This document shows positions 4,391 through 32,449 of a DNA stretch of 51,145 nucleotides, piece by piece. The stretch covers positions 1 to 51,145 of the forward strand of contig JAGASJ010000102.1 of the NCBI GenBank assembly GCA_017621795.1. Reading direction: 5' to 3'. This stretch comes from Oscillospiraceae bacterium. Lineage in GTDB: Bacteria > Bacillota > Clostridia > Oscillospirales > Oscillospiraceae. Both the position numbers and the translations under genes were made by a program. Under the pieces are notes generated by a model. The model was not told the DNA's origin. It searched no databases and saw only the letters and a program-made list of their open reading frames with translations. Positions within the stretch are counted from its first letter, which is position 1, and each line of letters opens with the position of its first letter.

Positions 4391-6388
4391 ATGCGAATTG
4401 CATTAGCCGGCAACCCAAACAGCGGTAAAACCACGATGTACAACGCGCTCACCGGCTCAAACGAGAAAATCGGCAACTGGGCCGGTGTTACCGTTGAGCG
4501 GAAAGAGCATCCAATCAAAAAAAGCATCTATGACGGTGACCTGATCATCGTGGACTTACCCGGTGCCTACTCAATGTCTGCTTTTACATCAGAGGAAAGC
4601 ATCACCAGCTCCTACATCAAAAACGAAAAGCCTGATGCCATCATCAACATCGTCGACGGCACAAATCTAAGCAGAAGTCTGTTTTTCACCACGCAGCTAT
4701 TGGAGCTGGGCGTTCCTGTGGTTGTGGCACTGAATAAAACGGATATCAACGAGAAAAAAGAAACTGTGATCGACGTTCAGTCCCTTTCCCAAAAGCTTGG
4801 CTGTCCGGTTGTTGAAACCATATCCACCACCAGCGAAGGTCTGAAAAACGCAGTATCCGCCGCTGTGGCAGTGGTTGGTCATCAACAGATCGCCCCGTAC
4901 AGACAGGGGGACATTGATACGACCGATAAAAAGGTGATGCAGAATGCTGACCGCAAGCGATTTGAGTTTGTAAACAGCATTGTGAAAAAGGTAGAAAAGC
5001 GCAAGGTATTCACCAGAGAAAAAACCTTTAGCGACAGTGTGGACCGTGTTCTCACCAACAAATGGCTTGGCATCCCCATTTTTGCCGTTGTGATGTTCCT
5101 TGTGTTCCAAATCTCCCAGGTTTGGGTGGGTACGCCTGTAGCGGACCTTTTTGTAGGCTGGCTTGAAAGCTTCCAGGGCTGGGTCGGAGAGCTGCTTGCA
5201 GATGCAAATCCGCTGCTTTCCGCCATTCTTGTGGATGGCATCATCGGCGGCGTTGTTGCTGTTGTGGGCTTCCTGCCGCTGGTGATGGTAATGTACTTCC
5301 TGATCGCCCTTTTAGAGGATTGCGGTTATATGTCCCGTGTGGCGGTGGTGCTGGATCCCATCTTTAAGAAGGTCGGTCTTTCCGGTAAATCCGTTATTCC
5401 CTTCGTGATCACCATTGGTTGTGCAGTCCCCGGTATTATGGCAAGCCGCACCATCCGCAATGAGCGGGAACGCAGAGCCACTGCCATGCTTGCCCCCTTT
5501 ATGCCCTGCGGTGCGAAGATTCCCGTAATTGCCCTTTTTGCAGGTGCGTTCTTCAATGGCGCAGGCTGGGTCAGCACTGTAATGTACCTGTCCGGTATTG
5601 TACTGATTTTCCTCGGTGCGTTGCTTGTGAACGGAATTACCGGTCACAGAGCAAAAAAATCCTTCTTCATCATTGAGCTTCCAGAATATAAAGCCCCTTC
5701 CCTTTGGGGTGCGTTCAAATCTATGTGCAGCCGTGGCTGGTCTTACATCGTAAAAGCCGCTACCATTATTCTTCTGTGTAATATGGCGGTGCAGCTGATG
5801 CAGACCTTTACCTGGAGCTTCCAGGTTGCTGAAACCGCGGATGCATCCATTCTTGCTTCCATCGCCTCCCCCTTTGCATATCTGCTCTTCCCCATTGTAG
5901 GTGTGCTCTCCTGGCAGCTTGCCGCTGCAGCCATCACAGGCTTTATTGCAAAAGAAAATGTAGTCGGTACACTGGCTGTTTGCTTTGTAGGTCTTGAAAA
6001 TCTGATCGACACTGAAGAACTTGAAATGATGGAAGGTGCAGGCGCAGAGGTTGCAGGCATTATGGCAATCACGAAGGCAGCTGCCCTTGCTTACCTGATG
6101 TTCAATCTCTTCAGTCCTCCCTGCTTCGCCGCCATCGGTGCAATGAACGCGGAAATGAAGAGCTCCAAATGGGTATGGGGTGGCATTGGTCTTCAGCTCG
6201 GAACAGGTTACACCATTGCATATTTGGTATACACCATCGGAACACTCATTTATAGCCCTACCTCCTTAAACATCGTCGGTGCCATCGCAGGCTTGGCAAT
6301 TATGATGATCTTCATCTCTACTCTCGTCTATTTGATCGCAAAAGCCAACTCTAAGGTTAAAAAGGAAATTGCTTTTAACAGCAAATAA
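4391..6388 (+). CDS. feoB: Ferrous iron transport protein B
   Basis: The 665-residue FeoB moves Fe2+ across the cytoplasmic membrane. Its N-terminal G domain shows G1 GNPNSGKT (residues 7-14), a G3 region DLPGAYS and G4 NKTD. A helical linker follows, then a membrane part with the Gate pattern GGVVAVVGFLPLV, EDCGYMSRVAVVLD and GCAVPGIMASRTI. The conserved cysteine in MPCGAKIP is present. The frame is open nine codons further upstream, but AGGAGG lies seven bases before this ATG. A small Cys-rich membrane protein follows after 7 bp. Confidence 0.95.
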   Translation: MRIALAGNPNSGKTTMYNALTGSNEKIGNWAGVTVERKEHPIKKSIYDGDLIIVDLPGAYSMSAFTSEESITSSYIKNEKPDAIINIVDGTNLSRSLFFTTQLLELGVPVVVALNKTDINEKKETVIDVQSLSQKLGCPVVETISTTSEGLKNAVSAAVAVVGHQQIAPYRQGDIDTTDKKVMQNADRKRFEFVNSIVKKVEKRKVFTREKTFSDSVDRVLTNKWLGIPIFAVVMFLVFQISQVWVGTPVADLFVGWLESFQGWVGELLADANPLLSAILVDGIIGGVVAVVGFLPLVMVMYFLIALLEDCGYMSRVAVVLDPIFKKVGLSGKSVIPFVITIGCAVPGIMASRTIRNERERRATAMLAPFMPCGAKIPVIALFAGAFFNGAGWVSTVMYLSGIVLIFLGALLVNGITGHRAKKSFFIIELPEYKAPSLWGAFKSMCSRGWSYIVKAATIILLCNMAVQLMQTFTWSFQVAETADASILASIASPFAYLLFPIVGVLSWQLAAAAITGFIAKENVVGTLAVCFVGLENLIDTEELEMMEGAGAEVAGIMAITKAAALAYLMFNLFSPPCFAAIGAMNAEMKSSKWVWGGIGLQLGTGYTIAYLVYTIGTLIYSPTSLNIVGAIAGLAIMMIFISTLVYLIAKANSKVKKEIAFNSK

Positions 6389-26008: not shown

Positions 26009-29000
26009 TTATTCGAGCACGTCATTGTCGGTCTCAAAATCGTCTGCACCGTTTGCGACCAGGTAATCGGCGGTAACGTAGTAATCATACAACTGCTGCA
26101 TCAGATTCTTCAGATCGTTATCCGTAGTATTGTTATACTGGCGGAAAATATAACACAAGGGGGCATATTGCACGGTCATCGTGTCGTTAATGGTTACAGA
26201 AATATTCTGATCCAGCAGATAGGGCAAAATGCCTGCTGATTCGATATAATACATTCCGTATTGCTCGCTGTATACAGGATTTTGAGCACTTCCCCCTACT
26301 TCAAAGGTATAAGAAGAAATGTCCGCGCCCTCGCTGAGTAGGAAATATAAGCGAGTAGCGACTCTTTCCTTATACAGTAAGGTGGCGCCGTAATATACGA
26401 TGCCGTCCAGGGGATTCTGAATCGCTGTCAGCTCCACCGAATTGATGGAATGATTCGTATTGTCAGTATATCCGTCATTGGCAAGATTATCCACATCATA
26501 ATCAAAATACAGCTGTGCCGCCGCACCGTAATGCAGCATTGCCATGACCATATCCTTCGTTACATCATCAAATTCGCCGTTTTCATCTTTCAGCACATAT
26601 TCGGCGTACTGACGAACAGAATATGTATTTTCCACAGTAGTGTCATTTACCGTGACGGACAATAGGATCTCTTCACGCATCTGACAGGCTGCCACTTCCA
26701 CGTGTAATACAAACTGCCCGTTTTCATTCTTATCCAGGTCAGCAATTGCGTATTCCAGAAGCGCATCGCCAAACATCACCAGCGCCTCTGCGTCAGCGGC
26801 ATCTTCATCGGAAACGTTGAGCACAAAGTTCAGTCCAACATTGTCCGCAAGTTCCACATTCCAGCAATCAATAATGTCCGGCTGTTCCTCAGCAGTAGAC
26901 GGCAGCGTGGTATAGTAAGTTGTTCCCTGCGCTGTCTTTACATAGAACTGAAGCTCCTGACCTCCGATGTTTGTTGAGGAAGAAGTATAGCAGCGCCAGT
27001 CTTGCTTATTGTACACGCCCAGGTATCGGCCTGTACCAAGGTGCTTCAAATATCCGCTGGAAGAGTCGATCACAAATGTATTACTAGAATTGGTACCCAC
27101 AGTTACACCTGTGTTGGAATTACCACAGTAAAGCCAGCTGTCGGTTATGCCGTTGGGATAGAAGATATAGCCGGAGGAATCACCGCCCAAATTCCACAGC
27201 AGGTTTTCCGCAGGCTCTGCAGAAAGCTTGTTGTTGGATACGGCAACATTCACCGCAGTGGGTTTACTGGTCTCATTATTGGGTAATGCATAAGTGCCGT
27301 TTGTTGCGTGGGTCGTGGTGATTACAAACGTATCGCTGGGACCAATAGCGGAAATATCCTTCAATTCGTAAGCAGAATCACCACCACCGTCATTTTCTGT
27401 ATAGGTATAAAGGGCATAATAGGTGGTATTTGCGGAAACCGTGCAACGGTCTCCTGCTTTGTAGATATTTCCCGGCTTATCGGCTGTGACATCCAGTTCG
27501 CTTGCGATCCAACCGAGGAAGGTATAACCCTCCGGTGCGCCTGCCACAGGCATTACTGCGCCGTTTGTGTCGCAAAGGACATCATCCACAGCAGAAACAC
27601 CTGCGGGAACACTAAAGGAAATAACGGGAATCGTATAGCTGTCACTGCAGTTTGTACAGGTATACACATTGCCGGAGAGCACATAATTATGTCCTAAAGG
27701 CTCCAGTAGCTCCGTATACAGGTAGTCGCATCTGATGCAGGTGTACTCTATTTCACCCTCCATATCACAGGTAGGCTCATCAATATAGGTACCGTCATCA
27801 TATTGATGCCCCAATGCCGCAACCTCTTCGTGTCCGCTGATGAAGGTATTGCAGCTGTTACAGTAGACACCTGCAGTATAGCCCACTTCTGTACAGGTCG
27901 CCGCGGTGGCGCCAATATTGGTTGTATTGGTGTGCTCGCACAGGGAGCTGGTGTAATACACTGTGCCACTGCTTTCCTGAATATACAGCTGGGGCAGAAG
28001 CATAGTAGTAGAAGTATTAGATGTATAGGTTGTAAATCTGGGAGAGGTCACATTATACAGGAAACGGCCGTAGGAGCTGGTTCCGTTTTGGATGGTCGCG
28101 CCGTCACTTGTAACAGTGATACTCCAGGTGGTCGTTCCGTTTCCCCAGGACAGACTCTTTGCCGCTGTTGCGCCCAGCAAGCTGCCGCTGTCATTACTGA
28201 AGGTCCACGCGCCGGCAGAACCACCTAAGGTTAACGGCAAAGCTCCCGACGGCACGGTGGAAATTGTGGAATTGTCGGAAGAGAAGGTCGCAGACACATT
28301 CGACAGATATGTCCCGGAAAGGTCACCGTTTACATAGCCCTTCTCATTGGAGGCGATCAGCACCTTTGCGCCGGCTTGAAGCTGACTTGCACTGGTTACC
28401 AGGGTGTATTCCCCGGTACTGCTGCCGCTCCCCTCTCCGTCCGTATAGCTATAGAGCGCGTAAAGAGTGGTATTGGCAGTGGGTGTGAAAGAGCCGGTGT
28501 AGGTAGTCGGCTTTGTCGTCGTATCGGCAGTAAGGGGGGATTTCGTCCAACCGACGAAGTTATATCCATCGGGCGCTGTCGCCGTCGGCAGCGTCATAGA
28601 TTCCCCGGCATAACCGGTTTTGGGTGTCACATTGGCACCGGAAAAAGATACGGTAACCGTGGTCTTCGCCGCAAAATTGATCCGAATGGAGCAATTAGAG
28701 GATGCGGTCACGGTAAATGTATTGCCGCTTTGGCTCACAGTAGCACTGCCGGATACAACAGTATAGCCGGAAACATAGTACCCGGTCTTAGGGGTAGCGG
28801 TAATGGTCTTGCCACTGACAGAAACCGTACCGTAGGAAGTGTTGTTGGATGTAGCTGTGATGGTATAAGATGATGTAGCGCCTTCGCCGGAGGGGGTGAG
28901 CATATCGGCAGGAACAGGCTCTTCAAACAGATCAAATGCCAGCTCGGGATAATCCACGAACACATTACGGAAGCCCAAAATGGACTCAACAGAGTCATTT

Positions 29001-29788
29001 CGGCCCAATTCCCATGTATCCACAGGATCTTCCTCAATCCAGGCAAGCAGCACTTCCTTGCTCTGCATCACACCGCTGGTTCCCCACATATTACCTTTAA
29101 TTGTGGAGTTGGAGCCGTAACGCACCCAAACGCCAAGGACCAGACGGGCAACATCACCTCTGAGGTTACTGGGTGCGCCTTCCGAGTTGGGGTCATAGTA
29201 GCCGCTGCCGGAACCGTATGCGGTATTGCCGCGGCTGGAGTTTTCGGATATGGCCGTAGGCCGAATCATAAAAATGTTTTCGCAATTGCCTCCGCCCTTA
29301 CTGTCGGGCCAGGTATGCTCTCTGTTCCACTCGCTGGTATTCCAGTCCGGTCCAATTCCGGTGCCGGAATAGAACGAAGAAATCTTACCGCCATTCCAAT
29401 TGCCGTTTTGCTGGCAGTCCGTATATTTAGCTAAAGTCTTGACCGCATCATAGGAACTTGACTTTGCGCCGCTGCTCATCAGACTTTGAAGCTTGGAATA
29501 AAGCGTGCTGCTGCCAGCCCCACTTTGGCTGCTGCTGCCGGCATAGCCAGAGAGGATCGTATAAGAGGTATTGGCATCTTCATAATACGAAATTGCCATA
29601 GGGGAAAGGAATGTGGCATTCTCCCCGCGGGTACCCCAGTTGTAAACGACATTAGAGTAACTGCCGGTACCGTATTTGTAGGTAACCGTCCCTGCGGCGG
29701 AAATCTCGACGGTGATGCCGGAAAACACACCGAGCACCATCATCAAAACCAGCAATAGTGATAAGCCCTGTTTTATCAATCTCTTCAA
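26009..29788 (-). CDS. Large secreted modular protein with N-terminal endonuclease I domain
   Basis: A 1259-residue exported protein. A signal peptide (KRLIKQGLSLLLVLMMVLG, with cleavage near SAAG) is followed by an endonuclease I domain (about 35-290). Its motifs are NREHTWP (155-161, H158 the likely catalytic His), FMIRPT, RGN, RGDVAR and DPVDTWELGRND. Then come two InlB-like repeats (YNFVGWTKS..., YTFLGWIAS...) each ending in a Y-ALY motif, two related beta-rich modules, three CxxC-bearing segments (CNSC, CIRC, CTNC), and a C-terminal region of about 260 residues with no named domain. There is no LPXTG anchor. The TTG start is set by GGAGG seven bases upstream; an ATG overlapping that site is rejected. 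A likely role is extracellular DNA or RNA degradation. Confidence 0.82.
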   Translation of the reverse strand: MKRLIKQGLSLLLVLMMVLGVFSGITVEISAAGTVTYKYGTGSYSNVVYNWGTRGENATFLSPMAISYYEDANTSYTILSGYAGSSSQSGAGSSTLYSKLQSLMSSGAKSSSYDAVKTLAKYTDCQQNGNWNGGKISSFYSGTGIGPDWNTSEWNREHTWPDSKGGGNCENIFMIRPTAISENSSRGNTAYGSGSGYYDPNSEGAPSNLRGDVARLVLGVWVRYGSNSTIKGNMWGTSGVMQSKEVLLAWIEEDPVDTWELGRNDSVESILGFRNVFVDYPELAFDLFEEPVPADMLTPSGEGATSSYTITATSNNTSYGTVSVSGKTITATPKTGYYVSGYTVVSGSATVSQSGNTFTVTASSNCSIRINFAAKTTVTVSFSGANVTPKTGYAGESMTLPTATAPDGYNFVGWTKSPLTADTTTKPTTYTGSFTPTANTTLYALYSYTDGEGSGSSTGEYTLVTSASQLQAGAKVLIASNEKGYVNGDLSGTYLSNVSATFSSDNSTISTVPSGALPLTLGGSAGAWTFSNDSGSLLGATAAKSLSWGNGTTTWSITVTSDGATIQNGTSSYGRFLYNVTSPRFTTYTSNTSTTMLLPQLYIQESSGTVYYTSSLCEHTNTTNIGATAATCTEVGYTAGVYCNSCNTFISGHEEVAALGHQYDDGTYIDEPTCDMEGEIEYTCIRCDYLYTELLEPLGHNYVLSGNVYTCTNCSDSYTIPVISFSVPAGVSAVDDVLCDTNGAVMPVAGAPEGYTFLGWIASELDVTADKPGNIYKAGDRCTVSANTTYYALYTYTENDGGGDSAYELKDISAIGPSDTFVITTTHATNGTYALPNNETSKPTAVNVAVSNNKLSAEPAENLLWNLGGDSSGYIFYPNGITDSWLYCGNSNTGVTVGTNSSNTFVIDSSSGYLKHLGTGRYLGVYNKQDWRCYTSSSTNIGGQELQFYVKTAQGTTYYTTLPSTAEEQPDIIDCWNVELADNVGLNFVLNVSDEDAADAEALVMFGDALLEYAIADLDKNENGQFVLHVEVAACQMREEILLSVTVNDTTVENTYSVRQYAEYVLKDENGEFDDVTKDMVMAMLHYGAAAQLYFDYDVDNLANDGYTDNTNHSINSVELTAIQNPLDGIVYYGATLLYKERVATRLYFLLSEGADISSYTFEVGGSAQNPVYSEQYGMYYIESAGILPYLLDQNISVTINDTMTVQYAPLCYIFRQYNNTTDNDLKNLMQQLYDYYVTADYLVANGADDFETDNDVLE

Positions 29789-29834
29789 AGCGAAAACCTC
29801 CATGTTTGAAATTTTTGCATTTTCTTACATTCTA

Positions 29835-29863
29835 ATGGTATCACAATACCTCGTATTTTTCAA
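29835..29863 (-). promoter_or_regulatory. Candidate promoter of the nuclease gene
   Basis: On the - strand, TTGAAA, a 17-bp spacer and TACCAT, about 47 bp before the TTG start. A small dyad GGTAT-CACA-ATACC (29837-29850) overlaps the -10. Confidence 0.45.
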
Positions 29864-30005
29864 CTGATTTTTACGCTTTTGCCCCCTCTTTTACATAAAT
29901 CCCTATAAAAATTCTCCAAACAAATGAGCGGGGTTGCTAAGGAAAGTCTTCTTTAATAAAGATGAAATTTGGCACACAAATTTCCTGCTTGCAACAGTAT
30001 AAGAC

Positions 30006-30060
30006 AAAACTGCCCAAAGAAGAGAAAATTTAACTCTTTTTCGGGTAGTAATTTTTATAT
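30006..30060. repeat. Left flank of the fishbone repeat with AAAACTGCCCAA copy
   Basis: AAAACTGCCCAA at 30006-30017 recurs exactly at 30230-30241 and nearly (AAAACTGCCGAA) at 30152-30163, so three copies mark the left flank, centre and right end of the structured element. The rest of 29864-30060 is AT-rich and shows nothing else that can be named. Confidence 0.5.
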
Positions 30061-30235
30061 AGTGATATTCTGTGCTAAACGCACAGAGTGATATTTCCCG
30101 TTCGGGAAGTGATATTGAAATCCTACGATTTCAGTGATATTTTATTCGCCAAAAACTGCCGAAGGCAATATCACTTGAACTTTAGTTCAAATATCACTGC
30201 AAAGCAATATCACTCGCCGTAAGGCGAATAAAACT
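30061..30235. repeat. Fishbone element: eight 9-bp repeats separating six mini-hairpins
   Basis: Four direct AGTGATATT copies (30061, 30087, 30108, 30133) are followed by three inverted AATATCACT copies (30167, 30190, 30206) and one degenerate copy AATAAAACT (30227). Small hairpins fill the gaps: CTGTGC/GCACAG, TCCCG/CGGGA, GAAATC/GATTTC on the left, and TGAACT/AGTTCA, GC/GC, CGCC/GGCG on the right. Pairing each direct copy with its inverted partner gives a central helix with a side hairpin on both sides at each junction. There is no open frame. It lies between ltaS-like and the nuclease gene, both on the - strand. Confidence 0.85.
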
Positions 30236-30264
30236 GCCCAAGTGTCCTTTAGAACACTTGGGCA
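30230..30264 (-). terminator. Terminator of the LTA-synthase-like gene
   Basis: Perfect 11-nt arms TGCCCAAGTGT (30235-30245) and ACACTTGGGCA (30254-30264), followed on the - strand by GTTTTATT, which already belongs to the fishbone element. Confidence 0.75.
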
Positions 30265-30289
30265 ACGTTTGGGGAATTTTTCTTAAAAG

Positions 30290-32449
30290 CTAAACATTCT
30301 GCAAATCGGAAGGTTCATCCTGGGGGGTGACTACTTTTTTCTTGCTATGTCTGTGTAAAACATACACCGTCACAAAAATCGCCACCGCCACTGCACAGAG
30401 AGAGTAAATCAAAGCCGTTACGTGTCGCATTTCCTGCGGCTGTGTATACTCCCGGGGATTCTTCAGATAACCATAGTAATCCGTTTCCAAAATTTTTGCG
30501 GATATACCTAACGTGTTGTTCACCACTGCCTGCATAGATTCCACATATTCATCCATCTCTTCTTCATTGGAGAAATAATCGGGATCATTGGGCACAAACT
30601 CGTCATCGGTTGCATTGTAGCTACCGTATGGCGTAATAAAAGCCCGGTTCGAAAGGATCACCAAGCCATCGCTGTCGGAAAGAATATCGCTTCCTGCCAG
30701 CAATCTTGAATCATATTCAAAGCCAAACAAATTCAGCAGCGTCGGCAAAATATCGGCGGAATAACAGGGCTTATCGATCACAGGGGGATTCTTTGTGCCG
30801 GAGCAATACAGCAAGAAGCAGCTCTTATACAGCTCAAACTCCAAATCCACCTCGTGACCCAGCAGTTCTTCCCACGCGGCGTAAATATCGCCGGTCTTGT
30901 CTTCCAGGCCGTAAGGGTAATGATCGGGTGTGATGGTGATCACCGTTTTATCCGCAACGCCCGCTTCCTCCAAAGCGAACAGCAATGCCTGCATTGCTCT
31001 GTCCAGCTCAATGTTGCAGGCATAGTAGCCCTTGAGCATATCGCTGCAAGGCAGGTCTTCAACCAAATGCCAGTTCTTGGCCACCATCGCATTGATTTCC
31101 TTATCATACTCCCGGTGGCCGCTAACGGTCATATAATAGGCACAAAATTGTTCGTTAGGCTGTATATAGTCGGAAACCGAGCCTGCAATCATTTCCAGAT
31201 CCGACTGAGGCCATACGTTTTGGACATACTCTTCCAAACCATTGCCCATTGCTTTGAAGGTATACCCCATATTGGGATGGGACAAATCCCGGCGGTAGTA
31301 TCCTGCGGAATTATTGTGATACGCAAAGGTTTTATTTACCCCAATGCTCTTAAACATATTGCCAAGGCAGTATGGCATATCGTTTTCAGCGGAATCGAAG
31401 AAGCTCCACACGCCCGCCTTGGGTAGCAGGCCGGTATTAGCCACATACTCGCCATCAGAGGTGGAAACGCCCCATATTGGCGTATAGAAATTGGTAAATT
31501 TAAAGCCATCGCGTTGCATTTTATACAAGGTAGGCGTCAGCTTCGGGTCAATCGCATAGGGAGAGAAGCCCTCGGCTACAACAGTAATCAGGTTATAGCC
31601 CTTGTACATTCCGGTATATTCATTTTTCTTTGTGGGCATTTGATCGGCAAAATAGCCGTGCATTTCCTTCAGCGTTTCGTCCTCTTCCTGCTCCTCCAAT
31701 GCCTCAAAATCGTATTTTTGAACGTTATATTCAGACGTATCATCTATATCGTCATCCTCAGGAACAGTAACATTTTCTTCTTCAATGCGCAGATCCTGGC
31801 TAAACCCGAACAGATTATATTTTAGGTCCAACGCCTCCGTTCGCATCAGGCCGAAGCTGCCAACGGCATAATTGGGGTCATAAAGTCCGTTTTGAATATA
31901 AGAAAGATTCGGTACAAAACTGATAACGATAACGGCTACAACATGCAGTATCAGGGATGCCAAAAAGGTTCTTAAAGCATTTTGAAACCGCTCATAGGGT
32001 TTTTGAATGCGCTTTGCGAAAATAAAATACAAAACAAGGGGAATTGCGAACAGTAAGATCATAGGAATGCCATCAATTACCGCCGCAACAGTACTATCGT
32101 TGATCTTGCCGGTCAATACCTGATTGACACCACCGGAAACCAGGGAATAAGTGATCAGATATTTGTTAAAAAAGAAGAAGTAAACTGTCTGTGCCGCAAA
32201 AACAACGAAAATAATGCTGAGCATAATTCTTGCGGCAATGCGCTGCCCTTTCTCACAAAACAAAAGGCAAATCGCCTGCATACCCAGCGCCAAGACTGCA
32301 CTGAAAACAGGCATAAAAACAAGACCAAGGTCGAAAAAGCGTCTGCATGTGACGCTCTTGGTCAAGATTTCCCAGTATAATAAAATGACAAAAAAGATTA
32401 CCGCAGGGGGCAGCTTTCTTACTTTTTCTTTCAGTTTATTGAAAAACAT
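30290..32449 (-). CDS. LTA synthase family sulfatase-like membrane protein
   Basis: A 719-residue protein with about five N-terminal membrane helices (residues 15-185) and an extracellular sulfatase-fold domain (about 265-620). The catalytic Thr is probably in GVSTSDGEYV, the metal-binding residues in VVAEGFSPY and ITPDHYPYG. A final membrane helix near 680-700 is unusual for LtaS. The family transfers glycerol-phosphate to build lipoteichoic acid or related polymers; the precise polymer is unknown. The gene has its own promoter and terminator. Confidence 0.88.
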   Translation of the reverse strand: MFFNKLKEKVRKLPPAVIFFVILLYWEILTKSVTCRRFFDLGLVFMPVFSAVLALGMQAICLLFCEKGQRIAARIMLSIIFVVFAAQTVYFFFFNKYLITYSLVSGGVNQVLTGKINDSTVAAVIDGIPMILLFAIPLVLYFIFAKRIQKPYERFQNALRTFLASLILHVVAVIVISFVPNLSYIQNGLYDPNYAVGSFGLMRTEALDLKYNLFGFSQDLRIEEENVTVPEDDDIDDTSEYNVQKYDFEALEEQEEDETLKEMHGYFADQMPTKKNEYTGMYKGYNLITVVAEGFSPYAIDPKLTPTLYKMQRDGFKFTNFYTPIWGVSTSDGEYVANTGLLPKAGVWSFFDSAENDMPYCLGNMFKSIGVNKTFAYHNNSAGYYRRDLSHPNMGYTFKAMGNGLEEYVQNVWPQSDLEMIAGSVSDYIQPNEQFCAYYMTVSGHREYDKEINAMVAKNWHLVEDLPCSDMLKGYYACNIELDRAMQALLFALEEAGVADKTVITITPDHYPYGLEDKTGDIYAAWEELLGHEVDLEFELYKSCFLLYCSGTKNPPVIDKPCYSADILPTLLNLFGFEYDSRLLAGSDILSDSDGLVILSNRAFITPYGSYNATDDEFVPNDPDYFSNEEEMDEYVESMQAVVNNTLGISAKILETDYYGYLKNPREYTQPQEMRHVTALIYSLCAVAVAIFVTVYVLHRHSKKKVVTPQDEPSDLQNV

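Follow-up and report, generated by a model that had tools for sequence, protein, structure and literature searches.

Prokaryotic MITEs and palindromic elements of the REP/BIME type are small, non-coding, palindromic and dispersed, and group IIC introns occupy a fixed orientation at intrinsic terminators. Among the intervening sequences (IVSs) of rRNA genes, some also have no S23 ORF. According to one paper on Coxiella (PMC4990558), heptameric repeats precede S23 in that organism, the IVSs replace the tetraloops of 23S rRNA helices and are removed by RNase III, and the S23 family is said to be without a known function. That paper was the only one in the open-access PMC literature in which we found "heptameric repeat" together with S23, and print sources may have more; passages of a second paper (PMC5524665) contained nothing on S23 with repeats. 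The profile of the S23 family, PF05635, resembles Avd of diversity-generating retroelements, as stated in PMC10053308. A further relevant entry is the Gut-1 RNA (Rfam RF01706), which was listed by Weinberg in 2010 among likely non-coding RNAs, from the human gut only (PMC2864571). In the open-access PMC literature the phrase "Gut-1 RNA" was not found and RF01706 occurs in one paper, though print sources may have more.

Here we describe an element in the window, as we call the whole 51,145-nucleotide stretch of Oscillospiraceae DNA that was analysed, in which a short word and its mirror alternate with small hairpins in the manner of a fishbone. We consider it probable that this fishbone is a non-coding copy belonging to a family of mobile elements that is coupled to S23 and resembles IVSs.

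Structure of the fishbone

The fishbone occupies positions 30061-30235. On its left, four plus-strand copies of the word AGTGATATT (30061-30069, 30087-30095, 30108-30116 and 30133-30141) are separated by the hairpins CTGTGC/GCACAG (30070-30086), TCCC/GGGA (30096-30107) and GAAATC/GATTTC (30117-30132). An apical stretch (30142-30166) is followed on the right by three exact minus-strand copies of the mirrored word AATATCACT (30167-30175, 30190-30198 and 30206-30214) and by a degenerate fourth copy, AATAAAACT, which agrees at seven of nine positions (minus strand, 30227-30235); between these lie the hairpin TGAAC/GTTCA (30176-30189), the mini-hairpin GCAAAGC (30199-30205) and the outer hairpin CGCC/GGCG (30215-30226). 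A preliminary description of the window had given this anatomy exactly, including the four words, their mirrored copies (three exact, one 7/9), the six hairpins and the apex. Three further points go beyond it, namely a longer repeated unit (29922-30266), terminator arms flanking that unit, and the inequality of the two halves. The halves are non-equivalent in that TTTTATTCGCC (30140-30150), which the apical stretch overlaps, is an exact 11-nt complement (100%) of 30223-30233 in the right outer hairpin, the 3' arm of which can alternatively pair with the apical stretch.

The word AGTGATATT or its mirror occurs seven times inside the element and nowhere else in the 51-kb window. A word-agnostic detector requiring at least five words found the fishbone as the single array of the window and found none in 40 first-order Markov resamples. 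The predicted fold is exceptionally stable both as RNA (-75.7 kcal/mol, z -8.2) and as DNA (-34.9, z -7.3), none of 200 shuffles being equally low in either case. It had been proposed that each repeat pairs with its mirror, and in the predicted RNA fold this holds fully for words 3 and 4, paired with mirrored words 2 and 1, and over eight of nine positions for word 2 with mirrored word 3, but word 1 is left unpaired with the degenerate copy. The opinion that the element fits no feature class has to be abandoned, because each half matches the Gut-1 model of Rfam (cmscan with RF01706): the right half on the minus strand at 30163-30236 with 54.2 bits, over the curated cut-off of 50, and the left half on the plus strand at 30060-30145 with 45.9 bits, under it.

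Insertion of a 345-bp unit into a terminator loop

The fishbone is part of a dispersed unit of 345 bp (29922-30266), copies of which are present on contigs C83, C79 and C69 of the same genome, with more in relatives. The unit resembles a MITE in being short and non-coding and in occurring at different, dispersed sites with identical ends. Its left module (29922-30056, plus strand) consists of the AAATGAGC end, an oriT-like stretch and a terminator-like hairpin; it is found in C83, C79 and C69 and, more or less complete, in loci L121, L132, L207 and L190, and exact left ends were also identified in L085, L111 and L121. At the right end (30236-30266) a hairpin, GCCCAAGTGT..ACACTTGGGC, extends to 30264 and is followed by the end of the unit in eight aligned copies, among which the similarity ends just past the hairpin, as judged by eye.

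The unit separates the two arms of a host terminator stem, AAAAATTCTCCAAAC (29907-29921) and GTTTGGGGAATTTTT (30267-30281), which are 15 nt long, 93% complementary and 345 nt apart. The gene to which this terminator belongs (30290-32449, minus strand) encodes a sulfatase-family protein (PF00884, 59.3 bits) that reads like a lipoteichoic-acid synthase and that we take to be LtaS-like. In the relative G112 both flanking genes are present and the terminator is intact, AAAAATCCTCCAAC-AAAA-GTTGGGGG, with no insert. Judging from this intact orthologous terminator, the mobile 345-bp unit almost certainly entered the terminator loop of gene 30290-32449. In the predicted fold of the host transcript, 14 of the 15 terminator-arm positions are paired across the insert. 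The outer words of the fishbone are inverted, and no target duplication was seen at the insertion site, either in the flanks of the copies or in the comparison with G112.

The inverted arms that flank the unit differ between copies, and in all seven long-unit copies tested they gave stem scores of 10-18.5 (pairs, with G-T counted half and one mismatch allowed), as against a mean of 5.4 and a maximum of 13 in 42 re-pairings. A related left module, outside this seven-copy test, occurs in L198, L201 and L211, where complementary arms were found in the general arm test (L198 and L211) or by eye (L201). We also considered nested terminator arms as a feature of all fishbones, for which the general test was weak: 19 of 87 elements scored at least 11 versus 26 of 257 re-pairings, in a control that contained redundant pairs. 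Where the left module is present, in the long unit, the arms are evident. At a second site, G108 has the same tRNA as contig C37, identical over 83 nt (100%), but lacks a fishbone in the next 330 nt, the first word marking the boundary in C37; the terminator sequence of G108 differs from that of C37, and this is therefore weaker evidence for insertion. When a tRNA-Tyr locus was compared, the two terminators differed in sequence, and the relative's contig ends at the terminator.

Two observations were made in passing around terminators. In L053, the fishbone at 1768-1913 is bracketed by two nearly identical copies of a 35-nt terminator palindrome. Downstream of the split terminator in the window, the product of the gene at 26009-29803 is 1264 aa long and contains an endonuclease I domain (PF04231) as well as a Listeria-Bacteroides-type repeat.

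Within the left module, the block at 29964-30006 (plus strand) contains the inverted repeat AAATTTG..CAAATTT and, after it, CCTGC and GTATAAGACA; it looks like an origin of transfer. It matches at 86% over 43 nt an intergenic stretch of L202 and L203 (1501-1543 in each), with changes on both sides of the inverted repeat. In L202 the matching block adjoins a NikA-like gene (PF21983), and in L313 a relaxase-like ORF was seen beside the NikA-like gene (by eye, without a profile). Since the block is common to the unit and the NikA/relaxase region of an integrative element, the tiny 345-bp element may be open to transfer in trans. The inverted repeat has been lost from the L132 copy. No matches to the unit or to the oriT-like region were found in plasmids, and of seven stretches with three words in viral contigs none passed the detector at six words. 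Separately, an unannotated phage record from human faeces, MT835815.1, contains part of the right half at 5071-5174 (80% identity, 28% covered).

Distribution, words and orientation of fishbones

The absence of the alternating pattern from other genomes had been named in advance as evidence that would tell against it; other genomes do carry it. A scan for three copies of AGTGATATT gave at least 115 stretches among the matches listed, of which 111 are by title Clostridia, Clostridiales, Oscillospiraceae or Ruminococcus bins, many of them ruminant, and two are unplaced Bacillota. The other two were rejected as fishbones, that of Planktothricoides (L146) being a plain tandem repeat and that of Methanosarcina (L166) having copies in one orientation only. 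In L141 (4329-4647), four matches in a row in the same orientation represent tandem copies of the AGTGATATT array. The word-agnostic detector identified 122 elements, distributed over 109 of 217 loci, whereas base-shuffled copies yielded none. The words vary and include AGTGATATT, GTGAAAT, TGAAAT, ATGATG, AGTTATATT, GTGAAG and TCGATA, among others, so the constancy of the spacers that had been reported applies within one element but not between elements. A lack of compensatory changes in the hairpin arms, the other such evidence named in advance, was not found either: the arms stay paired though their sequences differ, and 324 hairpins of at least four pairs had a mean of 6.2 Watson-Crick pairs.

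Removal of near-duplicates left 92 non-redundant elements, in 79 of which the two outer arms differ by 2 nt or more in the length of their match to the apex (43 versus 36 by side). At an 8-nt threshold the raw counts for the 92 elements were 37 with an apex match confined to the left arm, 36 with one confined to the right, 5 with a match in both arms and 14 with none. The side of the outer arm that matches the apex was designated P1 and used to orient the elements, the matching pair in the window being 30140-30150 with 30223-30233.

Fishbones stand mostly behind terminators, about a third of them behind tRNA genes, in a preferred orientation. Among 74 oriented elements with flanks, a terminator-like hairpin lay within 85 nt on the P1 side of 53 and on the other side of 13, the background being 68 of 1536 random positions. 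A tRNA was located within 160 nt on the P1 side of 26 and on the other side of 3 of the same 74 elements (background on either side, 45 of 1536), and 30 of 31 P1-side tRNAs read toward the element. The word type of the window is found less often beside tRNAs (2 of 22 elements detected as AGTGAT; 3 of 7 as GTGATA). In L025 (1440-1500), L302 and L308, an inverted copy of part of the tRNA 3' end follows the tRNA and its terminator, forming a long palindrome.

Association of fishbones with S23 genes

Genes for S23 four-helix-bundle proteins (PF05635) recur beside fishbones, an association that is new in this analysis. There is no S23 match within the window, and any action of S23 on its fishbone would therefore be in trans. 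The genome from which the window derives has nine S23 genes (10 matches, two of which are pieces of one gene), and four of the nine (on C21, C11, C18 and C37) have a fishbone within 100 bp upstream. Of the remainder, the C61 fragment has a Gut-1 match ~70 bp away, the C90 gene has arrays and a fishbone ~190 bp downstream, the C1 gene has a weak array 543 bp upstream, the C56 gene has an array ~830 bp off on its 3' side, and the C47 gene has mirrored words without hairpins (by eye). An S23 gene beside a fishbone at 9929-10234 of C11 (G000) has an in-frame TGA, indicating that S23 copies decay. Across 61 genomes, S23 was present in 27 of 28 with Gut-1 versus 13 of 33 without (p = 1.7e-6, a value that ignores phylogeny and assembly completeness).

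The loci examined contained 52 unique S23 rows, 47 of which had flanks. A mirrored 6-mer was present at least twice on each flank in 24 of the 47 (mean 2.3 and maximum 8 in 200 re-pairings), and a fishbone lay within 250 bp upstream in 17, corresponding to 16 S23 genes, at 21-165 nt before the matched domain. These array and fishbone classes hardly overlap, the one row in both (L055) being there via a second fishbone behind the gene. A more lenient alignment test of the 47 rows gave a mean of 16.5 for a gene's own flanks versus 9.1 for re-paired flanks, although no more than 11 of the rows beat all their re-pairings. Because some loci had been fetched via fishbones, the best estimate of the fishbone share comes from those fetched by S23 alone (L218-L256), in which a fishbone lies no more than 250 bp upstream of 9 of the 38 genes. 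For 13 of the 16 fishbone genes the P1 side faces away from S23, and for 3 it is unclear; in most, a TATAAT-like box was seen by eye between fishbone and gene. The window's own word precedes S23 in L138. Fishbones are tied to one clade of S23 proteins: in a tree of 42, a branch with support 99/98 has on one side all 14 fishbone genes together with L250, which has a partial fishbone by eye, and on the other all 23 array genes and four unlabelled ones.

Pairs of S23 proteins above 80% identity (19 pairs) share on average 5.8 letters of their 6-mers, those at 60-80% share 3.7 and those below share 3.1-3.3. The words thus turn over faster than the S23 protein changes, which argues against strict word recognition. 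Such recognition was also examined by a Mantel test, and the correlation obtained (r 0.29, with 0 of 1000 permutations as high) can be explained by shared descent. By eye, S23 genes with mirrored arrays were located between purH and purD in L239 (1432-1870), L230, L232, L234, L238, L242, L243 and L246, and at this same site the words differ, being AAGATA in L239 and TGGAGA in L230. Taken with the 6-mer decay, the different words at one site indicate that several copies change together, seven or eight of them in each element; the simplest explanation would be that one arm is copied from the other.

It is against this association that an ordinary MITE, moved in trans by the transposase of a terminator-preferring insertion sequence and linked to S23 by hitch-hiking, has to be weighed. 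The small size, non-coding nature, dispersal, defined ends and different flanks of the unit are all what such an element would have. However, the association with S23 is strong and forms a cluster on the protein tree, and a search of 250 family genomes with one left-end pattern found no autonomous partner, the single genome recovered being the window's own. We therefore regard this explanation as unlikely and retain that of an S23-coupled mobile element.

S23 genes outside the genus

Matches to PF05635 were found in 47 of 299 genomes of a phylum sample. Among the 30 best S23 rows from other genera, 13 had mirrored words (control mean 1.2, maximum 5). Three of the 30, L339, L345 and L350, lie inside 23S rRNA genes and are thus classical IVSs; these three failed the word test and do not count toward the 13. 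When flanks were aligned, those of L339 and L345 were more complementary than in every re-pairing, and L350 scored 19 versus 19.5 for its best re-pairing.

Gut-1 as half of a dyad

The window's genome has 40 Gut-1 matches at E<=1, of which 14 are over the cut-off and many form convergent pairs; at the same E value 4 of 14 control genomes also match, with none over the cut-off. At E<=1e-6, matches were found in 28 of 61 genus genomes and in 3 of 299 of the phylum sample, including the window's genome. Twenty-nine genus loci were fetched by Gut-1 matches alone (L041-L069); 24 of these have a mirrored array of at least six words, and in 21 the array overlaps the match itself. As mirroring is a condition of the detector, it is these 21 of 29 loci that provide the independent figure, and on their evidence Gut-1 models half of a dyad.

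The preliminary description had suggested selection on structure or a dedicated amplification mechanism. A dispersed, inserted element agrees with this, but selection on RNA structure found no support in a strand test. Read on the Gut-1 strand, the 324 hairpins contained 68 G-T, 64 A-C and 14 other mismatches (p = 0.79 for G-T versus A-C), in a test that rests on the arm-rule orientation and in which wrong assignments would blur the result. The common loops of the left half (TTC, TAC, TTAC, TTGC and TGC) are the reverse complements of those of the right half (GAA, GTA, GTAA, GCAA and GCA). Selection at the RNA level would favour G-T, and with G-T and A-C nearly equal and the loops mirrored between the halves we rejected such selection on one strand. 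The data point to a fishbone kept as DNA on either strand, or by a copying process, and not as one RNA.

These results bear directly on the view of Rfam and of the discoverers, in which Gut-1 is a trans-acting small RNA and the mirrored half would be a second gene or a by-product. That view has in its favour the minus-strand match over the cut-off and the inclusion of Gut-1 among likely non-coding RNAs in 2010 (PMC2864571). We judge it improbable given the mirrored array at 21 of 29 Gut-1-fetched matches, the balance of 68 G-T and 64 A-C mismatches, the reverse-complementary commonest loops (TTC/GAA, TAC/GTA, TTAC/GTAA and TTGC/GCAA) and the terminator-like hairpin that precedes 53 of 74 elements. 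Least likely of all is that the element is retained because it acts on host genes, as a terminator in both directions or as a site of RNase III processing. The terminator-like hairpin found no more than 85 nt away on the P1 side of 53 of 74 elements and the still-pairing arms of the predicted fold would suit this, but the orthologous G112 site has a plain terminator without the element, and the 345-bp unit is also at unrelated sites.

Proposed mechanism and relation to known systems

In the S23-coupled family that we favour, one form (H) would have arrays of a short word and its mirror flanking an S23 gene, some such genes lying inside 23S rRNA as IVSs, and another (F) would have the array and its mirror side by side, their words alternating with hairpins, a short way upstream of an S23 gene. 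The stand-alone fishbone of the window would be the array part without the S23 gene. Since the S23 gene is inside the mirrored arrays in form H and outside them in form F, the forms are not simple variants. The window unit almost certainly entered the loop of an intrinsic terminator, much as IVSs replace the loops of rRNA helices, and movement may target hairpin loops in general. The S23 protein may recognise and bind the arrays and take part in movement or control. A self-folding insert would presumably be tolerated because the terminator arms still meet, with limited damage to the host terminator.

A broader reading is possible, and we put it forward tentatively: proteins like S23 and Avd may drive a phylum-wide mobile class whose sole shared signature is a short word and its mirror, rewritten in concert, of which IVSs, operon arrays and Gut-1 fishbones would be three forms, and which would move into hairpin loops, perhaps by reverse transcription. 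The latter is suggested by the fact that the relative Avd works with a reverse transcriptase. If the S23-coupled, IVS-like reading is correct, the S23 family would gain a testable candidate substrate, and Gut-1, presumed to be a small RNA, would be reclassified as one half of a mobile DNA element. The IVSs of rRNA, the S23 genes of operons and the terminator inserts would join in one class, so that IVS movement would become testable outside rRNA.

Compared with MITEs and REP/BIME elements, the fishbone is likewise small, non-coding, palindromic and dispersed, but it has a constant word with variable hairpins and is without an identified transposase or RAYT partner. It shares with group IIC introns the fixed orientation at intrinsic terminators; however, the window insertion is in the loop and not behind the stem, and no intron family of Rfam matched at E<=5 over 29700-30600, the RNA core of such introns being absent from that interval. 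With Gut-1 RNA it has in common that a repeated word separates the hairpins, and both of its halves match the model. The Rfam model, however, describes a single half, over 77 positions, as an RNA whose word is GUGAAAU, whereas the fishbone unit is a dyad that occurs with many types of word and shows no bias toward one RNA strand. The relation to Avd of diversity-generating retroelements is via the protein family, in that PF05635 resembles Avd (PMC10053308). In comparison with S23-type IVSs, including those of Coxiella, the window element is located in the terminator of a protein gene rather than in a 16S or 23S rRNA helix, has hairpins between its words and encloses no S23 ORF. It nevertheless resembles them in its complementary ends and in a stem that takes the place of a former hairpin loop, to which correspond the heptameric repeats before S23 in Coxiella and the complementary flanks around S23 in two of the three 23S genes tested here.
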